From Blastocatellia bacterium (GTDB lineage Bacteria; Acidobacteriota; Blastocatellia; HR10; J050): 64,000 bases of DNA. Below the pieces are notes generated by a model that made no database searches, was not told the origin of the DNA, and saw only the letters and a list, made by a program, of their open reading frames with translations. Shown here one piece after another: positions 19,148 through 44,676 of the stretch; within the stretch, counting starts at the first letter, position 1, and each line of letters opens with the position of its first letter. Location of the stretch: positions 1 to 64,000 of the forward strand of contig JALSQX010000053.1 of the NCBI GenBank assembly GCA_026985075.1, read 5' to 3'. The position numbers and the translations under genes are program-made.

Positions 19148-19175
19148 CATGAGAGCGGCACCGGGAGGATGAGAC

Positions 19176-19460: not shown

Positions 19461-19538
19461 TGTGGTACACTCTGCTGGCCTCTCTCGCCTATCTGACGCT
19501 CGGCGCGAGGAGAGAATGCCCGACGAAGGAGAAACACC

Positions 19539-20357: not shown

Positions 20358-20378
20358 GCTGACCGAGCGAGGGTTCAT

Positions 20379-20621
20379 ATGAGGAAAGAGCATATTCTTT
20401 TCCGCATCGTCGAAGAAAAGTGCATCGACTGTGGCCTCTGCCGCGAGGTATGCCCATACACCGCCGTCTACATAGAGCCCAATCCGCTCAGAATCCGCTT
20501 TGTCGTCGACGAAGCCCGGTGTACGGGTTGTGGGGGCGAAGAGCACGCCCTCTGTGTTCGATTCTGTCCTGCTCCTGGTGCTCTCATGGAGATCCAGCGA
20601 ACGGCCCAGTCCATGGTGTGA
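20379..20621 (+). CDS. 2x[4Fe-4S] ferredoxin
   Basis: An 80-residue ferredoxin with two cluster motifs: C15-x2-C18-x2-C21-x3-C25-P, and C48-x2-C51-x7-C59-x3-C63-P. The second motif has a longer middle spacing, as in Alvin-type bacterial ferredoxins. Last gene of the redox operon, 21 bases after the diiron gene. Likely an electron donor to that enzyme or to the downstream catabolic reductases. Confidence 0.88.
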   Translation: MRKEHILFRIVEEKCIDCGLCREVCPYTAVYIEPNPLRIRFVVDEARCTGCGGEEHALCVRFCPAPGALMEIQRTAQSMV

Positions 20622-20762
20622 TGCCAGCAGTCGACGGACGATCCCCTTCCCGCCCTGATCTCTTCTGATCGAGGAGGCGGCTCCCTTCATTCGTGTGGAA
20701 CGAACAGTCGCCGTTCAACCGCGGGGCCTCCACTGCTGGTCGGCCATTTCGATCACTCACCG

Positions 20763-22903: not shown

Positions 22904-23634
22904 TGAATAGCATGGACTTATGGCGCTTTCTCCGCACGAGGCGGCGGGTGGACCTGACGCACCCGCTCGCCGAAGGCATGCCTTATTGGCCCGGTCGGCT
23001 TCAGGAACCGTTCAGCCATACGGTGGAGGAAGTGCGCGCCCGGGTGTGGGGAGGCTGCTTTGCCATGGCCGAACATATGGGTACGCATATCGATGCTCCC
23101 CGGCACTTCGTAGCCCACGGGCGCACTGCCGAGGAACTCCGTTTGGATGAGATGATTTCCTTGGGCATCGTCGTGGACATCAGCGACCGGGTGGAACGCG
23201 ATCCCGATTATTCGCTCACCATCGATGATCTCCGACGATGGGAACGCGAGCACGGTCGGATTCCATCTGAAGCCACAGTCCTCCTTCACAGCGGATGGGG
23301 GCGACGTTGGACTGATGCTCGATCTTACCTCAACGAGGATGCCGAGGGGGTCCTCCATTTCCCCGACTTCTCCGGCGACGCCGCCCGCTTTCTCGTCCAA
23401 GAGCGTGGCGTCACGACGTTGGGGTTGGATACGCTGAGCGCCGACAACATGATTCACACCATAGAGGCGGATTCCCCGGTTCACCGCCTCGTGCACGAAG
23501 CCGACGGTCGCATCATCGAGAACCTGGCTCGACTCGACGAACTTCCACCGAAAGATTTCATCCTCATCCTCGCTCCCCTGCCCATCGAAGGGGGTACGGG
23601 CGCGCCAATTCGCATCTTCGCAGTCATTCCATGA
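22900..23634 (+). CDS. Cyclase-family protein (kynurenine-formamidase-like metal hydrolase)
   Basis: A 244-residue protein of the KynB/cyclase family. The signature VDLTHPLAEGMPYWPG is followed by the metal-binding HMGTHIDAPRHF motif near residue 50 and a GLDTLSAD stretch near residue 177. Family members hydrolyse N-formylkynurenine, isatin or other cyclic amides and lactones using zinc or manganese. Overlaps the M20 gene by four bases. The length is 30-40 residues above typical KynB, so a non-kynurenine substrate is quite possible. Confidence 0.88.
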   Translation: MMNSMDLWRFLRTRRRVDLTHPLAEGMPYWPGRLQEPFSHTVEEVRARVWGGCFAMAEHMGTHIDAPRHFVAHGRTAEELRLDEMISLGIVVDISDRVERDPDYSLTIDDLRRWEREHGRIPSEATVLLHSGWGRRWTDARSYLNEDAEGVLHFPDFSGDAARFLVQERGVTTLGLDTLSADNMIHTIEADSPVHRLVHEADGRIIENLARLDELPPKDFILILAPLPIEGGTGAPIRIFAVIP

Positions 23635-23658
23635 TCGAGGAAGAAGTCCCATCTTGAG

Positions 23659-24966
23659 ATGGCGATGATCGCGCATCGCGCAGAACGAAAAATATACTAT
23701 GGTTGGTGGGTGGTACTCAGTTCGGCCATCGTCCTGTTCGTCGGCCTGGGATTCGGCCTCTACACATTCCCCGTCTTCTATCCCGCTCTCATCGAGTCGT
23801 TCGGTTGGAGTCGTGGCGAGGTGGTCACCGGAGGCGCTCTCCTGATGGTCATCCTGGGCATCATGAGTCCGTTCACGGGCATGACCATCGACCGCTACGG
23901 AGCGAAGAGGATTGTGATGTTCGGCGTGGTGATGGTCGGAACGGCGCTGTTGTTGTTCACGCTCGTCCATTCGCTCTGGCAATTCTATGCGGCCTGCTTC
24001 TTACTGGGACTGGGGCTCTGCGGCGTTTCGCATATGCCCAATCAGGTTCTCATCGCCAACTGGTTCGTTCAAAAGCGCGGACTCGCCGTGGGTCTCATCA
24101 GCGCCGGAGTGGGGTTGGGTGGGGCAGTTGGTCCATTATGGGTCACTTCTCTCATTGACCATCACGGATGGCGCGCCGGATTCGCCGGCATGGGCGTGGC
24201 GGTGTGGGCCATTCCATTAGTCCTGGCGGCCGTGGTCATCAAGAATCGTCCTCAAGACATGGGCCTCTTGCCCGACGGCGCGGCCACTCCCCCTCCCCGA
24301 TCAAGGGCGCACTCCCGCCACCGACTTCGATGGGCGAGCGCGACGTTCGGTCAAGCCGTGCGGACGGGCGACTTCTGGATTCTCTTCTCGGCCATTTTCC
24401 TGATTTCCGCGATGATGTACACGATCAGCCAACATCTCTTCGTTCACCTGCGCGATAAAGGGTTCCCCTCGACGCAAGCTGCCGGCGCCCTGAGCATTAT
24501 TCTCGGCACGAGTTCGGCGGGCAAACTGCTATTCGGCGCATTGAGCGATCGGCTCGACAAACGAAATGTTATGCTGATCACGTTCATTCTGTTGGCCGGA
24601 TCATCCCTGGCCCTGCTCATGCCGCCGCGGTTGAGTCTCATTTATGCTTTTGCCCTGACGTTCGGATTGGGGTATGGAGGGATTTTCAGTTGCATGCCGG
24701 TCGTCGCCGCCGAGTATTTTGGGTTAGGCGCCCTGGGCAAGATTCTCGGCCTCATTTTCTTGAGTTTCAATCTAGGGGGCTCATTGTGGCCGATTGCCGC
24801 CGGGTATCTTTTCGATGCTGTGGGAAACTACGACCTCGTCTTCGCGCTCAATCCCCTGATGGGATTCACCGCGGCTGGCCTCCTTCTCTTCCTCTCCGAT
24901 CCCCGTTCCGTTCGCCGGCCGGTGGAAGGAGAAGGAGCCATAGAGTTCAGCAATGTCGGGCGCTGA
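23659..24966 (+). CDS. MFS transporter
   Basis: A 435-residue major facilitator with 12 predicted helices, the first being WWVVLSSAIVLFVGLGFGLYTF. The loop 2-3 region carries a DRYGAKR motif and the mid-protein loop a DRLDKRN motif. It resembles the oxalate/formate and monocarboxylate branch of MFS, so an organic acid is a plausible cargo. Sits in the operon between the cyclase and amidohydrolase genes. Confidence 0.88.
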   Translation: MAMIAHRAERKIYYGWWVVLSSAIVLFVGLGFGLYTFPVFYPALIESFGWSRGEVVTGGALLMVILGIMSPFTGMTIDRYGAKRIVMFGVVMVGTALLLFTLVHSLWQFYAACFLLGLGLCGVSHMPNQVLIANWFVQKRGLAVGLISAGVGLGGAVGPLWVTSLIDHHGWRAGFAGMGVAVWAIPLVLAAVVIKNRPQDMGLLPDGAATPPPRSRAHSRHRLRWASATFGQAVRTGDFWILFSAIFLISAMMYTISQHLFVHLRDKGFPSTQAAGALSIILGTSSAGKLLFGALSDRLDKRNVMLITFILLAGSSLALLMPPRLSLIYAFALTFGLGYGGIFSCMPVVAAEYFGLGALGKILGLIFLSFNLGGSLWPIAAGYLFDAVGNYDLVFALNPLMGFTAAGLLLFLSDPRSVRRPVEGEGAIEFSNVGR

Positions 24967-24999
24967 GCATGTCGTCTCTGCCTGGAGGGAGCTTCATTC

Positions 25000-26397
25000 A
25001 TGACGGCTGAACCTCAACGCATCGATTTACTCATCACCCATGGTCTCCTGGTGACGATGGATAGGGAACGGCGCGTCATCACCGATGGCGCGCTGGCCAT
25101 TGCCGGAGATCGCATTCTGGACGTGGGGAAGACGCACGCGCTTCAGAGTAAGTACCAGCCTCGACGCCTCATCGATGCTTCGGAGAAGGTGATCACGCCC
25201 GGCTTCATCAATGGTCACGTCCATTGTACGGGCGAGCCGTTGACCAAAGGATTCGTCCCCGATGACACGCCCTTCGAAGAGAATGTCTTCGAATGGTTGT
25301 GTCCCATCTATGCGGCGCACGAGCCGGATGACGAATACTTGTCGGCTCTGCTCATTGCCATAGAGATGTTGAAGACGGGGACGACCTGCTTCCTGGAGGC
25401 AGGAACCGTCCGATTCGTGGACCATGTCGTTCGTGCGCTGACCGAAGTGGGCATTCGTGCCCGGATCGGTCGATGGGTCTGGGACATCCCGCCCGAGCCT
25501 CGAGTGTATCGGCAAACGACCGATGAGGCCATCCGCCATTTGGAAGAAACCCTACAGCAGTTCCGCCGTCGCGCCAATGGGCGCATCCAGGCCTGGTCGA
25601 TGATCATCGGGCACACCACCTGTTCCGATGCGTTGATGAGAGCGGCCAAACAATTGGCCGATGAATATGAGGTGGGATTGAATATGCACATGTCACCGGC
25701 GGCCATGGACCCCCAGGGTTTTCTGGAACGTACCGGGCATCGGCCCATCGAGCACTTGGCCGCTCTCGAGGTGCTGGATCGCAACGTTGTTCTCGTCCAC
25801 ATGGTCCACGTGGATGACAATGAACTGCGATTGGTGAAACAAAAGGAGGCTCACATCGTGCACTGCCCGACCACGGCACTCAAAGTGGCCTATGGCGTGA
25901 CCCAGATTGGCAAGTTCCCGGAGATGCTGGCCATGGGCATCAACGTCGCTCTGGGATGCGACGGCTCGAATGCCGCCAACTCTATGGATATGCTCCGAGC
26001 GACCTATCTGGCTGCCGGACTGTTCAAGGACGCCCGTCGTGATCCCACGATGATCCCCGCTGAGACAGCCCTGGAGATGGCCACGTTGAATGGGGCGAAA
26101 GCACTGCTGCTGGAGAATGAGATCGGATCGTTGGAAGCCGGAAAGAAAGCGGACATCGTGCTCTTTGACCGTGCGCGACCCGAATGGGTTCCCCTCCATA
26201 ATGTGGCCAATGCGCTCGTCTATTCGGCCGATGGGCGGAGCGTGGATACGGTGATCGTCGATGGGAACATCGTCGTGGAAAATGGTCGGTGTACGCGCGT
26301 CGATGAGCGGGATATCTATCAACGGGCCCAACGAGCCGGTCAGGCTATCGTGGCCCGCACCGGTCTCCCTCGGAGAATGAAGTGGCCGGTCATCTGA
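25000..26397 (+). CDS. Amidohydrolase (chlorohydrolase/SAH-deaminase family)
   Basis: A 465-residue metal-dependent hydrolase of the ATZ/TRZ/MtaD family. Metal ligands: HVHC after GFING near residue 72, HMSPAAM in the middle, HMVHVDD near residue 270 and the Asp in GCDGSNAANSMD near residue 317. These enzymes deaminate or dechlorinate heterocycles such as adenosine derivatives, guanine and triazines. The exact substrate is not clear. Ribosome-binding site GGAGGGAG about 20 bases upstream is distant, but the next start codon would cut the N-terminal composite domain. Confidence 0.88.
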   Translation: MTAEPQRIDLLITHGLLVTMDRERRVITDGALAIAGDRILDVGKTHALQSKYQPRRLIDASEKVITPGFINGHVHCTGEPLTKGFVPDDTPFEENVFEWLCPIYAAHEPDDEYLSALLIAIEMLKTGTTCFLEAGTVRFVDHVVRALTEVGIRARIGRWVWDIPPEPRVYRQTTDEAIRHLEETLQQFRRRANGRIQAWSMIIGHTTCSDALMRAAKQLADEYEVGLNMHMSPAAMDPQGFLERTGHRPIEHLAALEVLDRNVVLVHMVHVDDNELRLVKQKEAHIVHCPTTALKVAYGVTQIGKFPEMLAMGINVALGCDGSNAANSMDMLRATYLAAGLFKDARRDPTMIPAETALEMATLNGAKALLLENEIGSLEAGKKADIVLFDRARPEWVPLHNVANALVYSADGRSVDTVIVDGNIVVENGRCTRVDERDIYQRAQRAGQAIVARTGLPRRMKWPVI

Positions 26398-26412
26398 GAG
26401 CCGAGTGGAGAG

Positions 26413-27468
26413 ATGAGGATGAAGGCGATCATCTACTACGAGTTCGGTGATATCGACGTTCTCCGTTACGAGGATGTTCCCGTGCCGGAGATCAACGACG
26501 ATGAGGTCTTGATTCGCGTGCGTTCCGTTTCGCTCAATCATCTGGATCACCTGCAGCGCCGCGTCCCCATCCTCCCCGGCTTTTCCCTTCCTCACATCGC
26601 GGGCATGGACGTGGCCGGGGACGTGGAACGCGTCGGTCGCGGCGTCGAGCGAGTGCATCCGGGCGATCGCGTCGTGATCAATCCGTCGATCAATTGCCAG
26701 CGCTGTGTGCGCTGTGCCAGAGGTCAAGATAACTACTGCGTCTCGTTGAAGGTCTTGGGAGGCAACGTTGATGGGGGCTTTGCCGAATTCGTGAAAGCCC
26801 CCGCCTCTCACGTTTACCGATTGCCGGATCATCTCTCCTATGACCTGGCGGCATGCATGCCTACGGTGTATTTGACCGCCTGGCACGCTCTGATAGACCG
26901 CGCCCAGCTCCGGGTCGGTGAAGATGTGCTCATCCATGCGGCCGGCAGTGGCGTGAGCATGGCGGCGATTCAGATCGCCAAGCTCTGCGGCGCTCGCGTC
27001 ATCGCCACCGCCGGCACGGAGTATAAGGTGGAGCGAGCCAGGCAACTGGGTGCCGATGTGGCAATCAACTATACGCGGGATGATTTCCCGGATATCGTCC
27101 GCCAGGTGACCAATGGCAAGGGCGTAGAGGTCGTCCTCGATCACGTGGGACCGGCGACCTGGGAGAAGAGCGTCCTCAGTCTCGCACCGAGGGGGCGTCT
27201 CGTCTATTGCGGGACAACAACGGGCACGCGGGCATCGATTGATCTTCCCCAGACCTACCACCTGGGCATCACGTTTATTGGTTCGGATGGATTCACTCTC
27301 TCTGAGTTCGAAGACGTGTTCGCTCTGTTCATCCAAGGGAAATTTCAGCCGGTGATCGACAGTATCTTCCCCCTGGAGCGGGCGGCCGAAGCACAGCGCC
27401 GCATGGCGGAACGCAAGATTTTCGGCAAAGTCATCTTGCACCCGGACGGATCTGACCGCCCCCTGTAA
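26413..27468 (+). CDS. Zinc-type alcohol dehydrogenase/quinone oxidoreductase family protein
   Basis: A 351-residue medium-chain dehydrogenase. The structural-zinc cysteines (CQRCVRCARGQDNYC, near residues 95-109) and the GroES-like catalytic half are followed by a Rossmann motif (AAGSGVSMAAIQIAK near residue 176). The catalytic-zinc pattern is incomplete: instead of the GHE signature, the equivalent region reads PHIAGMDVAG. It may thus act as an enoyl/quinone reductase or a crotonyl-CoA reductase-like enzyme. Start could be at 26419, one codon later. Confidence 0.85.
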   Translation: MRMKAIIYYEFGDIDVLRYEDVPVPEINDDEVLIRVRSVSLNHLDHLQRRVPILPGFSLPHIAGMDVAGDVERVGRGVERVHPGDRVVINPSINCQRCVRCARGQDNYCVSLKVLGGNVDGGFAEFVKAPASHVYRLPDHLSYDLAACMPTVYLTAWHALIDRAQLRVGEDVLIHAAGSGVSMAAIQIAKLCGARVIATAGTEYKVERARQLGADVAINYTRDDFPDIVRQVTNGKGVEVVLDHVGPATWEKSVLSLAPRGRLVYCGTTTGTRASIDLPQTYHLGITFIGSDGFTLSEFEDVFALFIQGKFQPVIDSIFPLERAAEAQRRMAERKIFGKVILHPDGSDRPL

Positions 27469-27543
27469 ACAGAAGCCGAATACGTTTAGAATTATCTTGC
27501 CCGGCCGGCGAGGAGAGCGACCGAGGCAAAAGGAGGAACCACT

Positions 27544-28020
27544 ATGGAGAAGGAAAGAACCATGGAAGTCGCGGGGAGAGTCGTCGGCGTTCAGAAGAAA
27601 ACCCAATGGACGCATCTGGCCCTTCACATCCGGGATTTGGATAGGAGCATCGCCTTCTATACCGATTTCACGCCCTTGAAGAAAATCCATGAACGGTATG
27701 ATGAAGTGACCCGGATGCGGACCGCCTGGTTGAGCGATCGACCCGAAGGTCGCGAAACGGAATTCGTGCTCGTGTTGATCGAAGGTGATCCTCCGATGAT
27801 TGAGGATGCACACCCACAACAGCCGATTGCGCCGGTGAGTCATTTAGGATTTTCGGTGGAATCCCGCGAAGAGGTGGACCGCATTGCCGAGCGGGCGCGA
27901 GCCGCCGGCATCTTGAGATTCGGCCCCACCTATCTGGATGATGTCGTCGGTTACATCTGTATCATCGCCGATCCTGACGGCCATCAACTCGAGTTCTCCT
28001 ACGGGCAAGTGCTCGGATGA
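27544..28020 (+). CDS. VOC-family (glyoxalase/dioxygenase) protein
   Basis: A 158-residue vicinal-oxygen-chelate protein with two beta-alpha-beta-beta-beta modules. First module starts at THLALHIRDLDRSIAFY; second at SHLGFSVESREEVDRI and ends with the metal-ligand region DPDGHQLEFSYG. Predicted metal ligands are the histidines of THLAL and SHLGF plus the C-terminal Glu of QLEFS. Activities in the family include lyase, isomerase, epimerase and ring dioxygenase; none can be chosen here. AGGAGG precedes the start. Confidence 0.85.
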   Translation: MEKERTMEVAGRVVGVQKKTQWTHLALHIRDLDRSIAFYTDFTPLKKIHERYDEVTRMRTAWLSDRPEGRETEFVLVLIEGDPPMIEDAHPQQPIAPVSHLGFSVESREEVDRIAERARAAGILRFGPTYLDDVVGYICIIADPDGHQLEFSYGQVLG

Positions 28021-28026
28021 ACGCGC

Positions 28027-28329
28027 ATGATCGAACACATCGCCCTCTTCAAATTCAAGCCCACGACTTCGATCGCCGAGCAGCAACAGCTCGCGGCGCA
28101 ACTCCGGCAATTGCCCGAGATGGTGGACGGCATCGTCAGACTCACCATCCGACGAGATATTCTGAGAACGGATGATTCGTTCGACATGGGACTGTTCGTC
28201 ACGCTGGTTGATCGCACCAGTCTCCGACGATATGGAGCGTCGGCACAGCGTCGGGCGGTGAGTACCTATGCGCGCATGCTCTGCGAGCAGGTAGTCCTCT
28301 TCGATTACGAACTGGACGAAGCCGAGTGA
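28027..28329 (+). CDS. Dabb (stress-responsive alpha/beta-barrel) domain protein
   Basis: A 100-residue dimeric ferredoxin-like fold protein; MIEHIALFKFKP at the start and the FDMGLFVTLVDRTSLRRY stretch are typical of Dabb proteins. Related small enzymes include cyclases and decarboxylase-like proteins, others have no known activity. Six bases after the VOC gene and ten before grdC, so firmly inside the operon. Confidence 0.8.
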   Translation: MIEHIALFKFKPTTSIAEQQQLAAQLRQLPEMVDGIVRLTIRRDILRTDDSFDMGLFVTLVDRTSLRRYGASAQRRAVSTYARMLCEQVVLFDYELDEAE

Positions 28330-28339
28330 GGATCGCTCC

Positions 28340-29785
28340 ATGAATTTCCCGGTCATCAAAGCGGTATCCTACGCGCTCGCCCATACACCGGATCTCGTTC
28401 CCTATGGATCGAAACCGGAGCGCGAACTTCGTAAGACCCCCGCATTGTGTGGGCGCTTGGCGGCTCATTTACGGACATTCGATCAAGCTTGCGCCTATCC
28501 TCCTCACCAGGTGTTCATTGGCCGCACTCCCCCGGAAGCGCTGTGGGACAGAGAGACGCCTTGGTGGCGCCATCAGGATGCCATGGCGGAGCGGTGGGGG
28601 CCTTATGGGGAGATCATGCCGGAAGCCGAATTTTATGGACTCCTCCGGTTCAGCGACGAATTCGATCTCGTCTGGCTGGAACCGGCCTTCCTGGCCACTG
28701 TTCGTCAACGGTTACGCGCCCACCCGCTCTTTCGGACCGAGGACCTCGATCGACTGGGGGATGGCCATGCGTTGGACCGCATCCGATCGAAGATCACCGA
28801 TGAAGGCGCTCTCCCCCTTCGCCACCGGGATCGCCTGGTTGGCTGTGTTCGCCGCGGTCACGATGAAGATTCATTCCTCACTGCTAACATCCTGCTCGAG
28901 AATGTAGCGTGTAAGGCGACGGGCATGTTAGCCATTCGGTGGCTGTTTGAGCACCACCGGGAGGAAGGCATTCGCCCCGAAATCATCGATTACGTGATCA
29001 ACGCTGGCGAAGAAGCGGTGGGGGATCGTTATCAGCGAGGTGCCGGGAACCTGGCCAAAGCGATGGCGGAGCGCTCTGGATGTGTGAACAGTACCGGGGG
29101 CGATGTGAAAGCGTTTTGTTGTGGACCGATCCACAGTTTGATCATCGCGGCCGGACTCGTTCATTCCGGGATCTTCGAGCACGTCCTTGTGGTTGGTGGA
29201 GGAGCGCTGGCCAAGCTGGGGATGAAGTTTCGCGGGCATCTGAAGCACGACATGCCCATCCTGGAAGATGTCCTGGCCAGCTTCGCCATTCTCGTCGGGC
29301 CGCCGGATGATCGCAATCCCCGCATTCGACTCGACGCCATTGGCAAGCACGATGTGCGCTATAGCGGGTCGGCCCAAAGCATTGCTCGAGCGCTCATCGC
29401 CAATCCCCTGGATGCCCTGGGGCGCAGGGTCACCGACATCGATCGGTACGCTGTAGAATTGCACAATCCCGAAATCACCGAGCCGGCGGGAAGTGGAAAT
29501 GTCCCACGACACAACTATCGCACCATCGCCAGCTTGGGCGTGATGCGTGGAGAGTGGTCGCGCCATGCCATCGCCGAGTTCGAACGATGGCACGGACTGC
29601 CGGGATTTTCGCCGACACAGGGCCACGTCGCCTCGGCCGTGCCCTACCTGGGACATGCGCGCGATGCCATGCGGCGAGGAGACCTCCGAACGGCGATGTT
29701 CATTGGCAAGGGAAGCCTCTTTCTGGGGAAAATGACGCATCTCTCCGATGGGATGTCCTTCATTCTCGAGGCCCCGAATTCCTGA
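28340..29785 (+). CDS. grdC: Glycine-reductase component C beta-subunit homologue (GrdC-like)
   Basis: A 481-residue protein with the GrdC opening (NFPVIKAVSYALAHTPDLVPYGSKP) and a thiolase/FabH-like second half. The likely acyl-binding cysteine is in KAFCCGP (C260-C261), followed by VLVVGGGALAKLGMKF. In clostridia GrdC and GrdD together take the acetyl group from GrdA and release acetyl phosphate. No grdD (PlsX-like) gene is seen in this window, so GrdC may work alone, with a distant GrdD, or hand the acyl group to another acceptor. The gene starts the Grd block and is followed 70 bases later by thioredoxin. Confidence 0.85.
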   Translation: MNFPVIKAVSYALAHTPDLVPYGSKPERELRKTPALCGRLAAHLRTFDQACAYPPHQVFIGRTPPEALWDRETPWWRHQDAMAERWGPYGEIMPEAEFYGLLRFSDEFDLVWLEPAFLATVRQRLRAHPLFRTEDLDRLGDGHALDRIRSKITDEGALPLRHRDRLVGCVRRGHDEDSFLTANILLENVACKATGMLAIRWLFEHHREEGIRPEIIDYVINAGEEAVGDRYQRGAGNLAKAMAERSGCVNSTGGDVKAFCCGPIHSLIIAAGLVHSGIFEHVLVVGGGALAKLGMKFRGHLKHDMPILEDVLASFAILVGPPDDRNPRIRLDAIGKHDVRYSGSAQSIARALIANPLDALGRRVTDIDRYAVELHNPEITEPAGSGNVPRHNYRTIASLGVMRGEWSRHAIAEFERWHGLPGFSPTQGHVASAVPYLGHARDAMRRGDLRTAMFIGKGSLFLGKMTHLSDGMSFILEAPNS

Positions 29786-29855
29786 TCCGCGTTCTCTCGA
29801 CGGGTTCTGGCCGGAAATCTCGGCAGGGAAGCCAACGAAAAGGAGACGATGCCCG

Positions 29856-30191
29856 ATGATGACTGTGACGACGGAAACGTTCGATCCGGAGGTCGTGCGA
29901 GCGGAACAACCCGTTCTCGTCGATTTCTGGGGACCACGCTGTGGTCCCTGTCTGGCGCTCATGCCCGTTGTCGAAGAACTCGCCAGGGAGTATGATGGAA
30001 GGCTGAAGATTGTGAAAATCAATGCTCAGGAGAATCGAAAACTCTGCGTGCGATTGAAGGTGATCGGCCTTCCCACGTTTCTCTTCTTCGGTCGCGGCCG
30101 GGAAATGGGCCGACTCACCGGTCCCATTACAGCTGACGAGCTCAGAGAATGGGTTCAACGAGTGTTGTCGCGCGCACGTGGAATACGCTGA
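29856..30191 (+). CDS. Thioredoxin
   Basis: A 111-residue thioredoxin. The active site reads WGPRCGPC, with the CGPC pair intact and an Arg before the first Cys. The cis-proline loop is IGLPTFLFF. It lies between grdC and grdA, the place where clostridial grd operons carry their own thioredoxin to re-reduce GrdA, so that role is expected. Start at 29856 chosen by distance from AAGGAG (29840-29845); ATG at 29859 is an alternative. No thioredoxin reductase gene is next to it. Confidence 0.9.
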   Translation: MMTVTTETFDPEVVRAEQPVLVDFWGPRCGPCLALMPVVEELAREYDGRLKIVKINAQENRKLCVRLKVIGLPTFLFFGRGREMGRLTGPITADELREWVQRVLSRARGIR

Positions 30192-30207
30192 TGGGAGGAA
30201 GGCAACC

Positions 30208-30678
30208 ATGAAACTCGCCGGAAAGAAAGTCATCGTTCTTGGGGAACGGGACGGCGTGCAGGGGACGGCGCTCAGCCAGTGCGTGAAGGCCGCTGGTGGT
30301 GAAGTCGTGCTCACCGTCGATCAGTGCTTCGTCTGAACGGCGGCCGGTGCCATGGACCTGGAGGATCAAGGGGCGATCAAGGCCACGGTTGAGGAACTCG
30401 GCTCGGACGATATCGTGGTCATCTTGGGATCGCCCGATCCGGACGCCGCCGAGATGTACGCCGAAACGGTCACCCTGGGCGATCCGACCTATGCTGGTCC
30501 ATTGGCCGGAGTCTCGTTGAGACTCCCCGTCTACAACATCTTTGAACCGGAGATCAAAGAACAAATTCCCCCAGAGGTCTACCAGGAGCAGGTGGCGATG
30601 ATGGAGATGGTGCTGCCGGCTGAGGAGATCTGTGCCCGCGTCAGAGCGGTGAGAGAGAAAGCCGGAGTGTCCTCATGA
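30208..30678 (+). CDS. grdA: Glycine reductase selenoprotein A (GrdA), UGA read as selenocysteine
   Basis: Reading through the TGA at 30334-30336 gives a 156-residue protein, close to the family length of about 158. The N-terminus (GKKVIVLGERDGVQG) and the redox motif C40-F-V-U43 followed by TAAGAMDLE match GrdA closely. Sec43 carries the carboxymethyl group in the known reaction and forms a selenide-sulfide with Cys40, later reduced by thioredoxin. Conventional translation would call only the fragment from 30352. Ribosome-binding site GGGAGGAAGG lies 5-14 bases upstream. A possible SECIS stem is described separately. Confidence 0.93.
30337..30361 (+). promoter_or_regulatory. Possible bacterial SECIS element of grdA
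   Basis: After the UGA, CCGGT (30344-30348) can pair with ACC (30356-30358) and GG (30360-30361), leaving a bulged T at 30359 and a 7-base loop. The stem is short and is not the same shape as those in the grdB genes, so this is tentative. Confidence 0.35.
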
Positions 30679-30735
30679 CAGTCCACGACGTTATCCCCTC
30701 TGGCGTGGCGCTCAGTGGTCGAGAAGGAGCAGGCG

Positions 30736-32064
30736 ATGACCCATCCCATTCGGATCATTCATTATCTGAATCAATTTTTTGGTGGCATCGGCGGGGAAGA
30801 TAAGGCCGATGTGGGTTTAGAGATCCGCCGCGGTCCAGTGGGCCCGGGGCTCGGCCTCCAGCACGCTTTGGGCCCTGACGGAGAGATCATCGCCACGCTC
30901 ATTTGTGGCGATAATTATTTCCATATGCAGATGGCCACTGTGCGGACCGCTGTTCTGGACATCGTTGGAGATCTCCGGCCGGATATCCTCGTCGCTGGTC
31001 CGGCCTTCAATGCCGGTCGCTATGGCATGGCGTGTGGCGAGGTGTGCAAGGTCGTCGCCGAACGGGCGCACATGCCAACCGTCACGGCCATGTATCCCGA
31101 GAATCCCGCCGTTGAGACGTACCGTCGTGTTCCCAATCTCTGGATTCTCCCCACGGGGGCGACGGCAGCCGATATGCGAGCGGTCCTCCCGCGACTGGCG
31201 ACATTGATACGGAAACTGGGGCGTGGCCAACCCCTCGGCCCCGCCCGAGCGGAAGGCCTCATCCCCCGCGGACAACGGGTTCTCACCACCGCCTCGCGCC
31301 CGGGCGCCGAGCGCGCCGTCACCATGCTTCTGGCCAAACTGCGTGGCCAGCCGTTCCAGACGGAACTCCCCCTGTACCAACTGGAATCGGTTCCACCGGC
31401 CTCACCGGTCGCCGATCTCCGGACGGCGCGGCTCGCCACCATCACCACGGCGGGCCTCGTCCCCCGCGGCAATCCCGACGGGTTCAAAGTCTTCAATGCT
31501 ACCCGCTGGAGTCGCTATCGGCTCCCGGATGCTCCCGCGCTGAACGGCGAGGACTGGGAGATCATTCACGGTGGATTCAACACGGCATACGCTCAGGCGA
31601 ATCCGAACCTCGTTCTTCCCCTCGATGTTCTCCGGGAACTCGTTGGGGAGATGATCGGCGAACTGGACGAGTATTTTTACTCCATCACTGGTGTGGGGAC
31701 GAGCTTGGCTGTGGCCAAGCAGGCGGGCGAAGCGATAGCGGCGTCGCTCGGCGAGGATCACGTCGATGCCGCCCTGTTAGTGGCCACCTGAGGAACCTGC
31801 ACGCGCTGCGGCGCAGCGCTGGCCAAGGAGTTGGATCGCGCCGGTATTCCCGTGGTGCTCATCTCAGCCATGGCTCAACTGGCCCATCAGGTGGGAGCGT
31901 CGCGCATCGTTGTCGGACGGAAAATTCCTCATCCCTGTGGTGATCCCCTACTCCCTCCGGAATTCGATCGCGCCGTGCGAAGGGAGATCGTCATCACGGC
32001 ACTCCACGCATTGCAGACGCCCGTCTCCGCGCCCACGCTCTTTCGCCCCCGATATGCCCTGTAA
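30736..32064 (+). CDS. grdB: Glycine/sarcosine/betaine reductase component B selenoprotein (GrdB-like, copy 1)
   Basis: Reading the TGA at 31789-31791 as selenocysteine gives 442 residues with Sec352, matching clostridial GrdB (about 436 residues, Sec near 350). The N-terminus IRIIHYLNQFFGGIGGE and the post-Sec motif U-GTCTRCGAALAKE are family hallmarks. GrdB, with GrdE, binds the substrate and splits its C-N (or other C-X) bond, passing a carboxymethyl group to GrdA. Start at 30736 is set by GGAG at 30726-30729 and by alignment with copy 2. Conventional translation would stop at 31791 and miss the last 90 residues. Confidence 0.93.
31789..31819 (+). promoter_or_regulatory. Bacterial SECIS element of grdB copy 1
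   Basis: TGA, then 11 bases, then a 6-bp stem (GCGCTG 31803-31808, CAGCGC 31814-31819) closing the 5-base loop CGGCG. The copy in grdB2 has the same spacing and loop with two compensated base pairs. Confidence 0.65.
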
Positions 32065-32196
32065 CAGGCTGATGACGTCTGACGCGCCGACGAGAGACTA
32101 TCACCACTCGAGCCGCCGACTCAGGGACCGTCGATCACGCCCAGGTCGCGGTCGAGAGATCTCGCTCGGGCCACCTGCTCTGAGAGGCAAGCCACC

Positions 32197-33495
32197 ATGC
32201 AATTGGACGTAGGGACCTTTCCGATCAACAGCATCGTTTTCGACCATCACACGCGACTGGATGGCGATACGCTCCGGATCAACCGGCACGAGCTGATCCA
32301 GATGATCCAGGAAGACCCGTGCATCGAGCGCGCCGAGATCGAGCTGGCTATACCGGGCGAATCGACGCGCATCATTCACGTATGTGATGCGATCGAACCG
32401 CGGATCAAGGTATCCGGGCCGGGAGTGTGCTATCCGGGCTTGATGGGCCCCGTCGATACGGTCGGTCGTGGCGTCACGCATCGGCTGGGGGGAATGGCCG
32501 TCGTGCTCTCGGCCGAGTACCCGAGGCTTATCGAGACGGGCGTGGGCGCAGCTCACGAGGCGATCCTGGATATGTCGGGTCCCGGTGCGCTCGGCCCGAT
32601 CGCCCACACGCTCAATCTGGTGCTCGTTCTCGCGCTGGCTTCGGGGTACTCCCAAGGAGATTATAATCGAGCCGTACAACTGGCCGGTCTGAAGGTAGCC
32701 CACCGATTAGCGCAAACGACGGAGGGGAAAGCGCCTCCTCTCCGACGCCGATATGAACTCACTCCCGTCGATACCACACTCCCCAAGGTCGTGTACATCA
32801 GTCAGTTTTACACCCAGCTCAACTTGCCCGCTCCCTATCTGACGTGGTACGGAATGTACATCACCGACTGGATGCCCCTTTGGGTCCATCCCAACGAGAT
32901 CCTCGACGGAGCCCTCATCCCCGGAGCCGTCGGCGGTGACGCCGTGAGGCCGAGTTCCTGGGAATACGTCAACAACCCCATCATCGCGCGTCTGTATGAG
33001 GCCCACGGTGAGGCTCTCGCGTTTCTCGGCGTCATTGTGCACCGGACGCGATTCGAAGTCTTTGAAGAGAAGCAACTCTCGGCCAACCAGGCAGCGAAGT
33101 TGGCCAAGCTCATGGGCGCTGATGGAGCCATCGTCACTTGGATTGGAGCCGGAAATGCATTCATCGAGGGGATGTTGACCGTCCAGGCGCTCGAACGAGA
33201 AGGCATCAAGACCGTGTTCATGACCTATGAACATGGCGGTCAAGAGGGATGGGAAGCGCCACTCATGTTCACTGTGCCCGAGGCTGACGCCATCATCTCG
33301 GTGGGGAGTCTCGACCGGGCGATCACCCTCCCGGCCGTGGAACGGGTCATCGGCGGAGATGAGCTGTGTTTAGATCCCGAAGCCAGTGGCGAGCGCGTGC
33401 CCGCCGCTGGCGAACTCCGACTCCCGTGGCGCCTCCCCATCGCCAGTGGCATCGATCATTGGGGATTTGGCCGACTCACCTGCATCGAGTATTGA
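32197..33495 (+). CDS. grdE: GrdE-like component B subunit (copy 1)
   Basis: A 432-residue protein of the GrdE family (clostridial GrdE about 428): MQLDVGTFPIN start, the ARIIH-type RIIHVCDAIEPRIKV motif near residue 58-72, and the HPNEILDGAL motif at 231-240. In classical GrdE the chain is cut before a cysteine around residue 242 to give a pyruvoyl group that binds the substrate amine. Here the matching stretch reads IPGAVGGDAV and has no cysteine, so processing seems impossible. Lies 132 bases after grdB1. Function as the substrate-binding partner of GrdB1 is inferred. Confidence 0.85.
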   Translation: MQLDVGTFPINSIVFDHHTRLDGDTLRINRHELIQMIQEDPCIERAEIELAIPGESTRIIHVCDAIEPRIKVSGPGVCYPGLMGPVDTVGRGVTHRLGGMAVVLSAEYPRLIETGVGAAHEAILDMSGPGALGPIAHTLNLVLVLALASGYSQGDYNRAVQLAGLKVAHRLAQTTEGKAPPLRRRYELTPVDTTLPKVVYISQFYTQLNLPAPYLTWYGMYITDWMPLWVHPNEILDGALIPGAVGGDAVRPSSWEYVNNPIIARLYEAHGEALAFLGVIVHRTRFEVFEEKQLSANQAAKLAKLMGADGAIVTWIGAGNAFIEGMLTVQALEREGIKTVFMTYEHGGQEGWEAPLMFTVPEADAIISVGSLDRAITLPAVERVIGGDELCLDPEASGERVPAAGELRLPWRLPIASGIDHWGFGRLTCIEY

Positions 33496-33504
33496 GTTCC
33501 GGAT

Positions 33505-34854
33505 ATGCGCACAACGCATGACCAGATGACCTCGCCCATTCGCATCGTTCACTACGTGAACCAGTTCTTCGGCGGAATCGGCGGCGAAGAACGCGCCGAT
33601 ACGGAACTGCTCATCCGAGAGCATCCGGTGGGCCCGGGAGTGGGCATCGCTCGGGCGCTCGGCGAGCGAGGACGCATCGTGGCGACCCTCATCGGCGGCG
33701 ACAATTATTTCACCGAGCGAATGGATGTGGCGCGATCGGCCGCGCTGGAGGCGATCGAAAGATACCGACCCGATGTCGTCATCGCCGGACCGGCGTTCAA
33801 TGCCGGTCGTTACGGCATGGCCTGCGGCGAGGTATGTAAGGCCGTCACGGAAACGCTTCGTATTCCCTCGGTCACGGCGATGTCTCCGCACAATCCGGCC
33901 GTTTCGCTCTATCGCCGGTCCACATATATTCTCCCCACAGGAGAATCGGCAGCGAGCATGCCACACATCCTTCCCCGCCTGACGGCATTCGCGCATCGAC
34001 TCGCCATTGGCGACGCCATTGGGCCAGCCGAACGCGAGGGCTATATGCCGCGCGGCATTCGTGGCATCATTTTGGATGAACGCTCTGCTGCCCAGCGCGC
34101 CGCTGAGATGCTCAAGGCTAAACTCACCGGCGAGCCTTACCAGACGGAAATTCCCGTTGAAGTCTTCCAGCCGGTCAGTCCAGCCGCTCCACTTCAGGAT
34201 CTCACCACGGCGACCATTGCGCTGGTGACCACCTCCGGACTGGTCCCTCGAGGGAATCCTGACGGATTCAAAAGTATGAATGAATCCCGCTGGGCGACCT
34301 ACCCGGTGAAGCACCTGGACGCGCTCGCCCCCGACGAATGGGAACCGATTCACGGGGGTTACGATGCGCGATTCGCGCGAGAGAATCCCAACCGCGTCGT
34401 CCCCCTGGACGTGTTGCGGGAGTTAGAGAACGAAGGCGTGATCGGACGACTTCACGCTGATCTCATCGTCACCGTCGGTGTTGGAACGCCCGTCGAAGTG
34501 TGCCAGCGGATGGGCGAAGAGATCGTCGACGAACTTCATCGCGCCAATGTGAGTGCCGCTATTTTCACGTCCAATTGAGCGACGTGTTCTCGTTGCGGCG
34601 CAACGATGGCCAAAGTCATGGAAGCATCTGGGATTCCGGTGGCGTTGATCACGGCGTTGACCACGCTGGCCAAAGATGTGGGCGCTCCCCGTATTGTCCA
34701 GGGCGTACGCATCCCTCACCCCTGCGGCAATCCGGCGCTCCCGTCCGATCGCGATCGGGCCGTGCGCCGGCGCATCGTCATGATGGCCTTGAAAGCCCTG
34801 CAGACGTCCGTCGTGAACCCCACCAGCTTCGTCGATCCCAGCGTCCTCATATGA
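33505..34854 (+). CDS. grdB: Component B selenoprotein (GrdB-like, copy 2)
   Basis: A second selenoprotein B. Reading the TGA at 34576-34578 as selenocysteine gives 449 residues with Sec358 (351 if the start is the ATG at 33526, the position matching copy 1). It is strongly similar to copy 1 throughout, including IRIVHYVNQFFGGIGGEE and the post-Sec U-ATCSRCGATMAK. It ends in an ATGA overlap with the frame of the next gene. Two B selenoproteins suggest two substrates or a heteromeric enzyme. The ribosome-binding site is weak for both start codons; coupling to grdE1, nine bases upstream, is likely. Confidence 0.92.
34576..34606 (+). promoter_or_regulatory. Bacterial SECIS element of grdB copy 2
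   Basis: TGA, 11 bases, then a 6-bp stem (TCGTTG 34590-34595, CAACGA 34601-34606) closing the loop CGGCG. Compared with grdB1, the first pair changes from G-C to T-A and the fourth from C-G to T-A, both keeping the stem. Confidence 0.65.
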
Positions 34855-34862
34855 GAGAGACG

Positions 34863-36161
34863 ATGCGTCTTGAAATGGGAACGTTCCCGATCACCGAGGC
34901 GACGTTCGGTCCCCGGACAGAGCTCGACGGAACGCGCCTGGTCATCGACCACGACGAACTGGCGGCCCTCGTCCTGGAGAACGGTTTCTTCCGCCGCGTT
35001 CGGATAGAGATCGTCTCTCCGGGCGAGAGCGCGCGCATCATCCATCTCCTGGACGCCATCGAACCACGCATCAAGGTTGAGGGACCGGGCGAGACGTTCC
35101 CCGGCTTCCTGGGCTCGGTGGAGACAGTGGGTGAAGGCCGCACGCACCGACTGGGGGGCGTGGCCGTGATGCAATCGGCGGAGATCCCCGGGCGCGGAAA
35201 GGGCGGATTGCTGATGGTCCGAGAAGGGATCGTCGATATGACGGGACCCGGAGCCGCGTACAGTCCCTTCTCGCAAACGATCAACATCGTCCTCACCTTA
35301 GAACTCGAGCCGAATTTCTCCGATGAGGAATACGACCGTACAATCCGCCTGGCGGGCCTGAAAGCGGCTCGCTATCTCGCTCGGACCACAGTTGACCGAC
35401 GGGCCCCTCAGTACCGAACGTATGATCTGACGATCTCTTGTCCCGCACTCCCGCGCGTCGTCTACGTTCACCAGATTCAATCTCAAGGAACGTTCGCGCG
35501 GACGTTCTTCTACGGAAAGCCCTTGGACCATCTGATCCCTACGCTCGTTCATCCCAACGAGCTGCTCGATGGGGCTCTGGTCAGTGGCAACTATGCGTAC
35601 CAGAGCATGAAAACGCCCACCTGGCTTCATGGCAATAATCCGGTGATCGAGCAATTGTACGACCGACATGGCCGGGACTGGAACTTCGTCGGCGTGATTC
35701 TCTCGCGCGGTCACTTCTACGGGATTAGCGAAAAACAGCACAGCGCCAATCACGTGGCGAAACTGGCGCGGATGTGGAATGCTGATGGGGCGATGATCAC
35801 CTGGGAAGGTGGCGGGAATTCTATCATTGAAGCCATGCTCACCATCCAGGCATTAGAGCGCGCCGGGATCAAGACGACGGCCATTTCTTACGAGTTGGGC
35901 GGAGCCGACGGAACGGGGACGCCGTTGCTTCTCTATTCGGTGCCCGAAGCTGACGCCTTGGTCAGTTGTGGCACGTATGAGCGACCTCTTCGACTCCCTT
36001 CCGTGAAGCGCGTCGTGGGCGGACGAACGATCCGATGCGACCCAGCGAAGGGAGGGCACCACCTTCCGGCTCACCAATCCCTCCAATTGGATACCAGCCT
36101 GCAGATGTATTGTGGTACCAATCAAGTGGGTTTCGGACGACGGCGGGGCATCGATTTCTGA
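34863..36161 (+). CDS. grdE: GrdE-like component B subunit (copy 2)
   Basis: A 432-residue GrdE homologue, the same length as copy 1: MRLEMGTFPIT start, RIIHLLDAIEPRIKVEG, HPNELLDGAL and the NNPVIEQLYDRHG block. At the position of the pyruvoyl-forming cysteine the sequence reads SGNY, where I recall clostridial GrdE having SGNC; no cysteine lies nearby. Start at 34863 matches copy 1; an ATG at 34851 overlaps the grdB2 stop and is also possible. The open frame runs back to 34500 but that part only shadows grdB2. Last gene of the Grd operon. Confidence 0.85.
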   Translation: MRLEMGTFPITEATFGPRTELDGTRLVIDHDELAALVLENGFFRRVRIEIVSPGESARIIHLLDAIEPRIKVEGPGETFPGFLGSVETVGEGRTHRLGGVAVMQSAEIPGRGKGGLLMVREGIVDMTGPGAAYSPFSQTINIVLTLELEPNFSDEEYDRTIRLAGLKAARYLARTTVDRRAPQYRTYDLTISCPALPRVVYVHQIQSQGTFARTFFYGKPLDHLIPTLVHPNELLDGALVSGNYAYQSMKTPTWLHGNNPVIEQLYDRHGRDWNFVGVILSRGHFYGISEKQHSANHVAKLARMWNADGAMITWEGGGNSIIEAMLTIQALERAGIKTTAISYELGGADGTGTPLLLYSVPEADALVSCGTYERPLRLPSVKRVVGGRTIRCDPAKGGHHLPAHQSLQLDTSLQMYCGTNQVGFGRRRGIDF

Positions 36162-36336
36162 CCAACGGGGGATTCGCCGAAGCCGACCGAGTGCCTCTCC
36201 GAGCGCGCCTCTTTGGCTTGAAAGACGACCTGGTCATCATAATGATCGGCACTCTTGTTTTTCCTTCCTTCAAGGACCTGAAACCCTCTCCGGTCCTTCA
36301 TCGAAATCCCGTTAACACTACATGAAGGAGGTCACT

Positions 36337-39930: not shown

Positions 39931-40746
39931 ATGTCCATTGACGCTCTATTCACCTTGAGGAGAATGTATCGGATCTTCCGAGACGACGGGCGCAGCCTGA
40001 TCGTGGCCATGGACCATGGCAGCGGACTGGACGTCTATCCGGCGCTCGTCGATCCGGCTCGCGTCCTCGATGCCGTGATCGCCGGAGGAGCGGATGCCAT
40101 TTTGACCACGCCCGGTATTCTCAAGCGATTCGCCTCTCGCTTGAAATCGGCGGGCGTCATCCTGCGGGTCGATGGCGGAAATACTCAACTGGGAGAAAAT
40201 GCGGGAGCTTACCGACTGTTATATTCGGTCGAAGAGGCCCTCCAATGGGGAGCCGATGCCGTCGCCTGTATGGGGTTTCCTGGCTCGCCATTCGAACAGG
40301 AGACATTGGAGAATCTGGCCGCCCTCGCCGGCCAATGCCACACCTGGGGCGTCCCCGTCATGGCGGAGATGGTGCCCGGGGGATTCTCCAACGTCCATCT
40401 CTACACGCCGGAGAATATTCGTCTGGCCGTGCGCGTCGGTATCGAGCTGGGAGCCGATTTCGTGAAAACGGCATACACGGGATCGAAGGAGAGTTTTCGA
40501 TCAGTCATCGAGCACGCCTATCGACCGGTCCTCGTCCTGGGAGGAGGAAAAGTCGATGACGCGCGAGCATTCTTCACCATGGTGAGAGAGGCTCTCGACG
40601 CGGGAGCGGCCGGGGTGGCTGTCGGGCGCAACATTTGGGGACACGAACATCCTCGAGCCATGGTGGCCGCGTTGAACTCTCTGATTCACGAGAAAGCGGC
40701 GCCGGATGAGGCCCTGGACATATTGGCCAATGAGTCTCCCCGATGA
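39931..40746 (+). CDS. DhnA/LsrF-type class I aldolase
   Basis: A 271-residue TIM-barrel aldolase of the DeoC/FbaB superfamily. Seen: VAMDHGSGLDVY near residue 25, GADAILTTPG near 55, the Schiff-base lysine in ADFVKTAYTGS near residue 180, and the phosphate-binding GGGK and GVAVGRNIWGH. Related enzymes are class I fructose-bisphosphate aldolase, LsrF and sulfofructose-phosphate aldolase. Together with the sugar kinase, dehydrogenase and aldehyde dehydrogenase downstream, it most likely cleaves a phosphorylated sugar made by that pathway. ATG 39931 follows GGGGGGA. Confidence 0.85.
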   Translation: MSIDALFTLRRMYRIFRDDGRSLIVAMDHGSGLDVYPALVDPARVLDAVIAGGADAILTTPGILKRFASRLKSAGVILRVDGGNTQLGENAGAYRLLYSVEEALQWGADAVACMGFPGSPFEQETLENLAALAGQCHTWGVPVMAEMVPGGFSNVHLYTPENIRLAVRVGIELGADFVKTAYTGSKESFRSVIEHAYRPVLVLGGGKVDDARAFFTMVREALDAGAAGVAVGRNIWGHEHPRAMVAALNSLIHEKAAPDEALDILANESPR

Positions 40747-40943
40747 ACCATCGATATCCCCTTGCCCCACTTCTGACATTGGAGAGGAGCAACGCCGGTT
40801 GGAGAGTCACTTCATGCCGGAATCTTCCGCACGCGCATGCCGTGTATATACACGTCGGGCGGCAGTCGCTCGATGTTCAACTCTGGCAGCGCGGCGACTC
40901 TGAGTCACAGAGCAGTTCCCTCCCTTTCGCCCACCGAAGGTGA
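40743..40943 (+). CDS. Possible small ORF, unknown
   Basis: A 66-residue frame that starts in an ATGA overlap with the aldolase stop. The protein has no recognisable motif and the frame ends within what otherwise looks like the leader of the dehydrogenase gene. It may simply be chance. It contains the palindrome at 40841-40854. Confidence 0.2.
   Translation: MNHRYPLAPLLTLERSNAGWRVTSCRNLPHAHAVYIHVGRQSLDVQLWQRGDSESQSSSLPFAHRR
40841..40854. promoter_or_regulatory. Perfect 14-bp palindrome, candidate GntR operator
   Basis: CGTGTATATACACG contains GTATATAC, which fits the GTMTAKAC type of dyad reported for GntR-family regulators. A GntR/FCD regulator gene lies 9 kb downstream. It sits about 130 bases upstream of the dehydrogenase -10 box. 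Confidence 0.4.
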
Positions 40944-40982
40944 CGGACCCCGTATTCGTCGACTCCGTCGAGCCCCTCGGTG

Positions 40983-40991
40983 TGTTACAAT
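40983..40991 (+). promoter_or_regulatory. Extended -10 promoter for the dehydrogenase gene
   Basis: TG-T-TACAAT with no clear -35 box; predicted start near 40998, ahead of AAGGAGAG and the ATG at 41030. Confidence 0.4.
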
Positions 40992-41029
40992 GTCGTTGGC
41001 GCGTTCCAATGGAAGAAGGAGAGAACACG

Positions 41030-42073
41030 ATGAGCAGTGCGGAACTGATGAGAGCCGTCATTATCACCGGTCCTCGAACGGCCACACTGGAGCGAATTCG
41101 ACGCTGGTCGCCAGAGCCGGGCGAAGTCCTGGTGCGCTGTAAAACGGCGGCCATTTGCACGACTGAGCGCCGGATTTTTCTTGGAGACCGCGCCCTCTAT
41201 CCGACCATTGGCGGTCACGAATTCGCCGGCATCGTCGAGTGGGTCGATGAAGATGATCCCGAACTGAAGCCCGGCGATTACGTCGCCATCGATGCCGTCA
41301 ACCGGTGTGGACACTGCTACTATTGCATCCGAGGGCATGATAATCTTTGCGTGGACATGTACAAACCGCGGAAAGATTACGGCTACATCCTCATCGGAGG
41401 CGGGTTCGCCGAGTACGTCACGCCATTGAGGAGTCAGGTGGTGAAACTCCCTCCAACGGTGAATCTGGAAGAAGCCAGCCTCATCGAACCGCTGGCCTGT
41501 TGCATCCATAGCATCAAAAAGGCGCAACTCGCCCTGGGCGAGACAATGGCCATCATCGGCGCGGGAACGATGGGCGCGATGCACATCATGTTGGCTAAAC
41601 TCATGGGAGCGAGGGTCATCGTCAGCGACGTTGATGAGGCACGGCTCGATCTGGCTCGGCGCGTCGGCGCCGACGTCGTCGTGAATCCGCGGCGCGATGA
41701 TCCGGTCAAGCTGGTCAGGGATTACACGGAGGGCCGCGGCGCAGATGCCGTCATCGTCGCGGCCAGCGCGAAAGAAGCGGGTCAGCAAGGATTGGCTCTG
41801 GTCGGGCGACTGGGTCGCCTCGTCCTCTACGCCTCGCTCTACCCCCCGGAGAATCTGGAAATTGACTGGAATCACATTCACTACGAAGAGATCACGATCA
41901 CGGGAACGGAGGGGAAGTCGGGCGAAGATTTTCGCCAAGCGGCCGCGCTGCTGGGAAGTGGCGCGATCAGTCTTCGCCCTCTCATTTCCAAGGTGATCCC
42001 ATTACACGAACTGCCTCAAGAATTGGCCCTCAAACCGACGGGCGAAACGCAACGGGTGGTCGTCAGACTGTGA
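41030..42073 (+). CDS. Zinc-dependent alcohol/polyol dehydrogenase
   Basis: A 347-residue medium-chain dehydrogenase of the sorbitol/threonine dehydrogenase group. Catalytic-zinc signature GGHEFAGIVEW (near residue 61) and structural-zinc cysteines CGHCYYCIRGHDNLC (near 93-107) are both present. The Rossmann loop reads AIIGAGTMGAMHIM near residue 175. It should oxidise a secondary alcohol of a sugar or polyol with NAD(P)+. Start at 41030 has AAGGAGAG upstream; the longer frame from 40940 lacks a ribosome-binding site. First gene of the second catabolic set. Confidence 0.88.
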   Translation: MSSAELMRAVIITGPRTATLERIRRWSPEPGEVLVRCKTAAICTTERRIFLGDRALYPTIGGHEFAGIVEWVDEDDPELKPGDYVAIDAVNRCGHCYYCIRGHDNLCVDMYKPRKDYGYILIGGGFAEYVTPLRSQVVKLPPTVNLEEASLIEPLACCIHSIKKAQLALGETMAIIGAGTMGAMHIMLAKLMGARVIVSDVDEARLDLARRVGADVVVNPRRDDPVKLVRDYTEGRGADAVIVAASAKEAGQQGLALVGRLGRLVLYASLYPPENLEIDWNHIHYEEITITGTEGKSGEDFRQAAALLGSGAISLRPLISKVIPLHELPQELALKPTGETQRVVVRL

Positions 42074-42134
42074 GGAGCACTGAAGAGGCGCATCGACCCA
42101 ACTGCCCGAGCGATCGCTCGTCACCACGCATTCC

Positions 42135-43106: not shown

Positions 43107-43133
43107 CAGGATTCATTCCTGGAGAATCTCCTC

Positions 43134-44633: not shown

Positions 44634-44676
44634 ACGGCTGGTCCCCTCACCTCTTCTTCCCGGAGGACGTGCGAAT

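Follow-up and report, generated by a model that had tools for sequence, protein, structure and literature searches.

The window analysed here is a 64,000-nucleotide stretch of contig JALSQX010000053.1 from a Blastocatellia bacterium (assembly GCA_026985075.1; genome 5.2 Mb, 98.66% complete), and it carries a gene set related to the glycine reductase (Grd) selenoenzymes. Textbook Grd systems, in which the GrdCD component makes acetyl phosphate, are viewed as an ATP-yielding trick of fermenters. Seven + strand genes in the window, packed together like an operon, follow the order grdC, thioredoxin, grdA, grdB1, grdE1, grdB2, grdE2. This order and its coordinates, put forward from the letters alone in what we call the original prediction, are borne out by gene calls and by matches to NCBIfam and Pfam models. 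The first gene, grdC (28340..29785, 481 amino acids (aa)), encodes a tail-less component C beta of the FabH/thiolase fold (NF040746, 626 bits; cut-off 450). It is followed by a thioredoxin with a WGPRCGPC motif (29856..30191; PF00085, 90 bits), which is the likely electron donor and whose closest model, NF047697, is matched at 100.8 bits, under the cut-off of 140. Next come grdA, encoding selenoprotein A with the motif CFVUTAAGAMDLE (30208..30678; NF040748, 215 bits, cut-off 130; PF04723, 209 bits), and two pairs of genes for component B. In the first pair, grdB1 encodes a selenoprotein B with UGTCTRCG (30736..32064; TIGR01918, 456 bits) and grdE1 a B alpha-type subunit in which the pyruvoyl cysteine is missing (HPNEILDGALIPGAVGGDAVRPSSW; 32197..33495; PF09338, 332 bits). 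In the second, grdB2 encodes a selenoprotein B with UATCSRCG (33526..34854; TIGR01918, 478 bits), for which an upstream ATG at 33505 is a possible alternative start, and grdE2, overlapping its end by 4 bases, again encodes a subunit with no pyruvoyl cysteine (HPNELLDGALVSGNYAYQSMKTPTW; 34851..36161; PF09338, 419 bits). All four of these B-component matches are over cut-off.

Three in-frame TGA codons for selenocysteine (Sec) lie at 30334-30336 in grdA, 31789-31791 in grdB1 and 34576-34578 in grdB2. TGA is kept at the same site in related GrdB (123 checked) and in the GrdA sequences inspected, and this conservation excludes a chance origin. SelA (479 bits), SelB (371 bits) and tRNA-Sec (72.8 bits, anticodon tca), whose presence bears on the selenoproteins of the original prediction, were all located in the genome. 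When folded, the 54 nucleotides 3′ of each TGA show no advantage over their shuffled counterparts (z 0.12, 1.07 and -0.71), so we claim no evidence for a selenocysteine insertion sequence (SECIS). With GrdA bearing CFVU, GrdB bearing UxxCxxC alongside GrdE, and GrdC all present, the system, judged by its sequences, genuinely belongs to the Grd superfamily.

What it lacks is GrdD. The original prediction noted that the window holds no PlsX-like GrdD, and this extends to the genome as a whole: the best match to the GrdD model (NF040747, cut-off 350 bits) is the housekeeping plsX at 30 bits, and no grdD was found elsewhere. The window system is thus not a complete acetyl-phosphate-forming Grd complex. 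It is quite improbable that the role of GrdD is filled by the housekeeping PlsX or by some other enzyme encoded away from the operon. PlsX is homologous to GrdD and is the sole protein of the PlsX/GrdD-type family (PF02504) in the genome, but its gene occupies the normal position between a DUF177 gene and fabH, its score against the GrdD model is very low, and the tail that accompanies GrdD in other GrdC proteins is missing here.

The absence of GrdD recurs in relatives. Fermenters reach 490-614 bits against NF040747; in genomes such as G000, G132, J050 and Desulfosporosinus sp. BG nothing comes near the cut-off. GrdD was not found in a second genome of the same family (G132, 99% complete), in Acidobacteria bacterium J050, in Desulfosporosinus sp. 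BG, in several Delta/Binatia genomes or in an acidimicrobial genome, and these GrdD-less genomes carry GrdA and/or GrdC. It was found in Geosporobacter, in one Synergistales genome and in one Selenomonadales genome. Among the Clostridia, the class of Geosporobacter, GrdD is over cut-off in 32 of the 34 genomes with GrdC; one of the remaining two has pieces of GrdD at contig ends, and in the other the contig ends just past grdC, giving GrdD in 33 of 33 evaluable GrdC genomes of the sampled Clostridia. In the phylum of a deltaproteobacterial groundwater genome (G399), by contrast, 15 genomes pass the GrdC cut-off and only 3 have GrdD (Fisher p 6.5e-9, a value computed over related genomes that are not independent). 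Assembly gaps do not explain these absences, because the GrdD-less cases include a genome in a single 2.3-Mb contig and another whose grdC lies on a 1.1-Mb contig. A search of the open-access literature, with subscription papers outside its reach, found no account of a GrdD-less Grd system or of Grd in Acidobacteria or Binatota.

The absence of GrdD is accompanied by a signature in GrdC itself. We define the GrdC tail as the residues past the conserved SDGxSF stretch. In all 40 GrdD-bearing genomes this tail is about 38 residues long (37 or more), typically with a helix-like ISxEEIRxxIAEAMRDFA, whereas in all 18 GrdD-less genomes it has 5-20 residues, and in the window GrdC 7. The tail even runs straight into GrdD in two GrdC-GrdD fusions, one of 879 aa in a Synergistales genome (L060) and one in Acidobacteria gp3 that is truncated by a contig end (L033). 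From these comparisons, a GrdD-less Grd with a signature in GrdC is evidently a recurring state across several bacterial groups. Every one of the 62 GrdC compared has Cys260, Asn392 and His429. An AlphaFold2 model of the window GrdC (predicted local distance difference test score, pLDDT, 91.9) has its best Foldseek matches in the PDB to OleA, FabH, PqsBC and thiolase, and a profile search also finds FabH. Further, Lys25 and Lys296 are present in 17 of 17 GrdD-less GrdC outside Desulfosporosinus; GrdD-bearing GrdC have Thr at position 25 in 36 of 40 and Asn at position 296 in 40 of 40. The two lysines could suit a phosphorylated acceptor.

The substrate-binding subunits set the window system apart as well. 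Glycine- and sarcosine-type GrdE have SGNCVxACDK or a close variant, and the pyruvoyl group is formed from the cysteine of that motif. In the alignment, neither window GrdE has this cysteine (IPGAVGGDAVRP; VSGNYAYQSMKTP), nor do their relatives. The original prediction did not note this difference, which means that the substrate chemistry differs too. The betaine subunit GrdI and the fluoroacetate subunit FarE likewise lack it (PMC10838667). In the GrdE tree, the 24 cysteine-bearing proteins form one group (support 96-99) that GrdI adjoins, and the window E1 and E2 fall inside a separate cysteine-less group of 40 (support 99). Within it, E1 adjoins a 27-row Delta/Binatia expansion and E2 lies in a region with Chloroflexi, Desulfosporosinus, Geosporobacter and Synergistales. 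The GrdB tree agrees, placing the window GrdB outside the glycine, sarcosine and betaine clades, so that neither B pair falls within a known group. Placement within one, or a grdD elsewhere in the genome, would have counted against the original prediction, and neither was found. Its suggestion of two substrates for the two pairs is plausible, with E1 and E2 47% identical and in different subclades.

Model scores point the same way. The window proteins reach 413 and 449 bits for glycine reductase (TIGR01917, cut-off 602), 480/488 and 239/305 bits for sarcosine reductase GrdF/GrdG (NF040794/NF040793, cut-offs 800 and 780), 412/417 bits for betaine reductase (NF040795, cut-off 775), with a clade separate from GrdI, and at most 41 and 87 bits for D-proline reductase PrdA/PrdB (TIGR04480/TIGR04483, cut-offs 700 and 300). 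A dehalogenase or fluoroacetate assignment was ruled out by scores of 115/139 bits against the FarE model (NF053623, cut-off 675). The window system therefore belongs to no named reductase within the Grd superfamily. These results also bear on whether the window simply contains a glycine or betaine reductase of the usual clostridial kind, acquired by transfer, whose grdD was lost or left unassembled. All components are true Grd homologues, and the completeness of the genome allows for a gap. However, GrdD is missing alike from three acidobacterial genomes, GrdE and GrdB lie outside the glycine, sarcosine and betaine clades, no glycine, sarcosine, betaine or fluoroacetate equivalog cut-off is reached, and GrdA occurs in just 2 of 396 genomes of the acidobacterial phylum, both of one family. 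Any transfer must be old, because the genes common to these two family members have diverged to about 70% identity. We consider this explanation largely refuted and very improbable.

Comparison with named systems makes the differences concrete. Clostridial glycine reductase (GrdA-GrdBE-GrdCD) shares with the window GrdA with CFVU, GrdB with UxxCxxC, GrdE, GrdC and thioredoxin in one cluster; the window differs in having two B/E pairs and in lacking GrdD, the GrdC tail, the pyruvoyl cysteine of GrdE and an operon trxB, which stands beside grd in L110 and L107. Betaine reductase GrdH/GrdI shares a GrdE-type subunit with no pyruvoyl cysteine and hence no Schiff base, but GrdI (site SGSFMPCSSKWSTYD) is sister to the pyruvoyl clade, unlike E1 and E2. 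Fluoroacetate reductase FarB/FarE of Cloacibacillus (PMC10838667) resembles the window system in having an E subunit with no pyruvoyl cysteine and, on our reading, in using a 2-substituted acetate whose leaving group is not an amine. FarB, however, lacks the CxxC that both window GrdB keep within UxxCxxC, and FarEB depend on host GrdA and GrdC encoded elsewhere. A further comparison is with the cluster of a sodium:solute symporter (SSF) with GrdB and GrdE, and in some cases A and C, in Desulfosporosinus and Geosporobacter (L017-L019, L034), which shares a cysteine-less GrdE near E2 and a related SSF, and whose version in Desulfosporosinus sp. BG is likewise without GrdD and without the tail on GrdC. 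That cluster has a single B/E pair and no thioredoxin.

In the clostridial precedent, the Sec of GrdB makes its attack at the substituted carbon and the carboxymethyl group is handed on to the Sec of GrdA; thioredoxin reduces the selenide-sulfide that then arises, and component C ends up with bound acetyl (PMC10298544). By analogy, we propose that two substrate-specific B/E pairs would each bind a 2-substituted acetate (X-CH2-COO-), a binding that would not proceed via a Schiff base because GrdE, as in the betaine and fluoroacetate reductases, has no pyruvoyl group. Displacement of X by the GrdB selenolate would give a carboxymethyl-selenoether, whose carboxymethyl group would next be taken up by Sec in the GrdA that both pairs share. 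Reduction would be finished by an adjacent cysteine and thioredoxin, with acetyl arriving on the active-site cysteine of GrdC. Up to this acetyl-GrdC stage, the system presumably works like a Grd reductase. With no GrdD partner, GrdC would then pass acetyl to coenzyme A (CoA), and acetyl-CoA rather than acetyl phosphate would feed central metabolism; CoA is the most likely acceptor because the GrdC fold is that of enzymes exchanging acyl groups with CoA or acyl carrier protein (ACP). The order of the chemical steps, borrowed from clostridial Grd biochemistry, the acceptor and the substrates are the parts we infer. Taken whole, a GrdD-independent Grd selenoenzyme, with two B/E pairs acting on 2-substituted acetates in the absence of a Schiff base and with GrdC delivering acetyl to CoA, is in our judgement slightly favoured.

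Phosphate or water are possible acetyl acceptors too. GrdC alone might release acetyl to one of them, as acetyl phosphate or free acetate, in which case the system would be a reductive detoxifier or electron sink that conserves no energy. Phosphorolysis in Clostridia was reportedly attributed to GrdD, in clostridial work by Kohlstock in 2001, the fold family uses CoA or ACP thioesters, and the operon looks assimilatory, with its aldolase, kinase and aldehyde dehydrogenase. On the other side, the tail-less GrdC retains Cys, His and Asn, no CoA-specific enzyme takes the place of GrdD at the GrdD-less loci read, and acetate is the product of fluoroacetate reduction (PMC10838667). We regard release by GrdC alone as unlikely, though deserving of real weight.

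Several observations tell against transfer of acetyl to CoA by a distinct GrdD-independent enzyme. Foldseek coverage of GrdC is partial, with template modelling (TM) scores by query of about 0.35-0.40. Lys25 and Lys296 are confounded with ancestry and are absent in Desulfosporosinus GrdC. The contrast in tail and GrdD may stem from a single evolutionary split, as an approximately unbiased (AU) test does not reject one clade of all GrdD-less GrdC (p 0.72), and the 58 genomes are thus not 58 independent tests. A first tree placed Desulfosporosinus GrdC inside the GrdD-bearing group and so suggested that tail and GrdD had been lost there separately; that argument was abandoned after the AU test. 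Lastly, loss of GrdD and loss of the pyruvoyl group are not one package, since GrdD-less genomes with pyruvoyl-type GrdE (SGNCVxACDK or SGNCAAPCHK) exist in the phylum of G399 (L173, L175, L177, L180, L183). Geosporobacter and Acidobacteria gp3 combine GrdD with a cysteine-less GrdE; coupling of the two losses is ruled out, as all four combinations occur. The five loci named above are apparently glycine-type reductases with no GrdD.

More broadly, and more tentatively, the window system may belong to a deep GrdD-independent branch in which a tail-less GrdC forms acetyl-CoA and non-pyruvoyl B/E pairs act on 2-substituted acetates other than glycine. This would be a modular catabolic route of respiring bacteria, one A/C module being shared by many B/E pairs (one genome has 27 GrdE matches), possibly beside O2-dependent enzymes. 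If so, respiring bacteria of soil and groundwater would also have selenium-dependent reductive cleavage, and its substrates would come to include compounds incapable of forming a Schiff base, with relevance to the removal of substituted acetates. Annotations of 'glycine reductase' outside fermenters may then be wrong on both substrate and product. The marking of the GrdD-less form by a tail-less GrdC makes it testable whether GrdC alone passes acetyl to CoA.

The surroundings of the operon are catabolic, as the original prediction held, and much of the gene set is conserved in a second genus (G132). Its claim of an acidobacterial origin is likewise upheld by Acidobacteria bacterium J050, whose locus is 93% identical to the window (GrdBE 86-93%). 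Upstream, at 18557..28329 on the + strand, lie genes for a HAAO-like cupin (39 bits, cut-off 220), a 272-aa protein, EamA, an M20 amidohydrolase, an arylformamidase-like cyclase, MFS, an amidohydrolase, an MDR dehydrogenase, VOC and Dabb. Except for MFS, replaced by EamA, these are 52-86% identical and kept in order in G132 (L109), where they are followed by grdE1-grdB2-grdE2; another contig there carries grdC-trx-grdA-grdB1, with an aldolase, an FGGY kinase and an aldehyde dehydrogenase directly 3′ of grdB1. Also in G132, a protein with an allophanate hydrolase C-terminal domain lies between grdE1 and grdB2 (L109:12205-12630), and a gamma-glutamyltranspeptidase precedes grdC (L014:1646-3274).

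Downstream in the window, at 39931..46134 (+), are a DeoC/LacD-family aldolase, a zinc-dependent alcohol dehydrogenase (Zn-ADH), EamA, an FGGY kinase and an aldehyde dehydrogenase closest to the betaine-aldehyde dehydrogenase (BADH) model (537 bits, cut-off 669). The aldolase and aldehyde dehydrogenase may together release X-CH2-CHO and oxidise it to X-CH2-COO-, the kind of substrate Grd reduces. An SSF gene follows (46744..48237, +). Where Geosporobacter, Desulfosporosinus, Thermincola and a Synergistales genome have an SSF immediately 5′ of grdBE, the window protein shares 38-40% identity with it; for the remaining SSF in the vicinity of grd genes the figure is 23-29%. A 1168-aa protein (36322-39828; 97% identical in L016) is encoded in the interval from grdE2 to the aldolase gene. 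Its N-terminus looks repetitive and its end resembles a beta-barrel; it is probably a receptor of the TonB-dependent type. Sequence searches of Pfam, NCBIfam and PDB matched nothing to the upstream 272-aa protein (19539-20357), whose AlphaFold2 model has a pLDDT of 38; it carries two ExxH motifs, is perhaps a diiron enzyme, and at 86% identity in G132 is more conserved than the Grd proteins.

Related grd genes occur in other lineages. The groundwater genome G399 has 27 GrdE-family matches and one GrdC (L021, L029, L030, L039), and G407, G400 and G401 have 9, 7 and 5 GrdE-family matches among them; GrdD is over cut-off in none of these four. At L021, L022 and L026 the B/E genes are interleaved with genes for NMT1/SBP substrate-binding proteins, and L022 also has UbiD and hydantoinase A/B genes nearby. 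An Acidimicrobiales cluster (L050:5877-19673) has the order grdE-B-C-A with Sec and no GrdD, and its neighbours encode Rieske oxygenases, BKACE, a GcvT-like protein and adenosine deaminase. Together with the HAAO-like cupin of the window, the Rieske oxygenases beside this cluster hint faintly at oxygen-using organisms.

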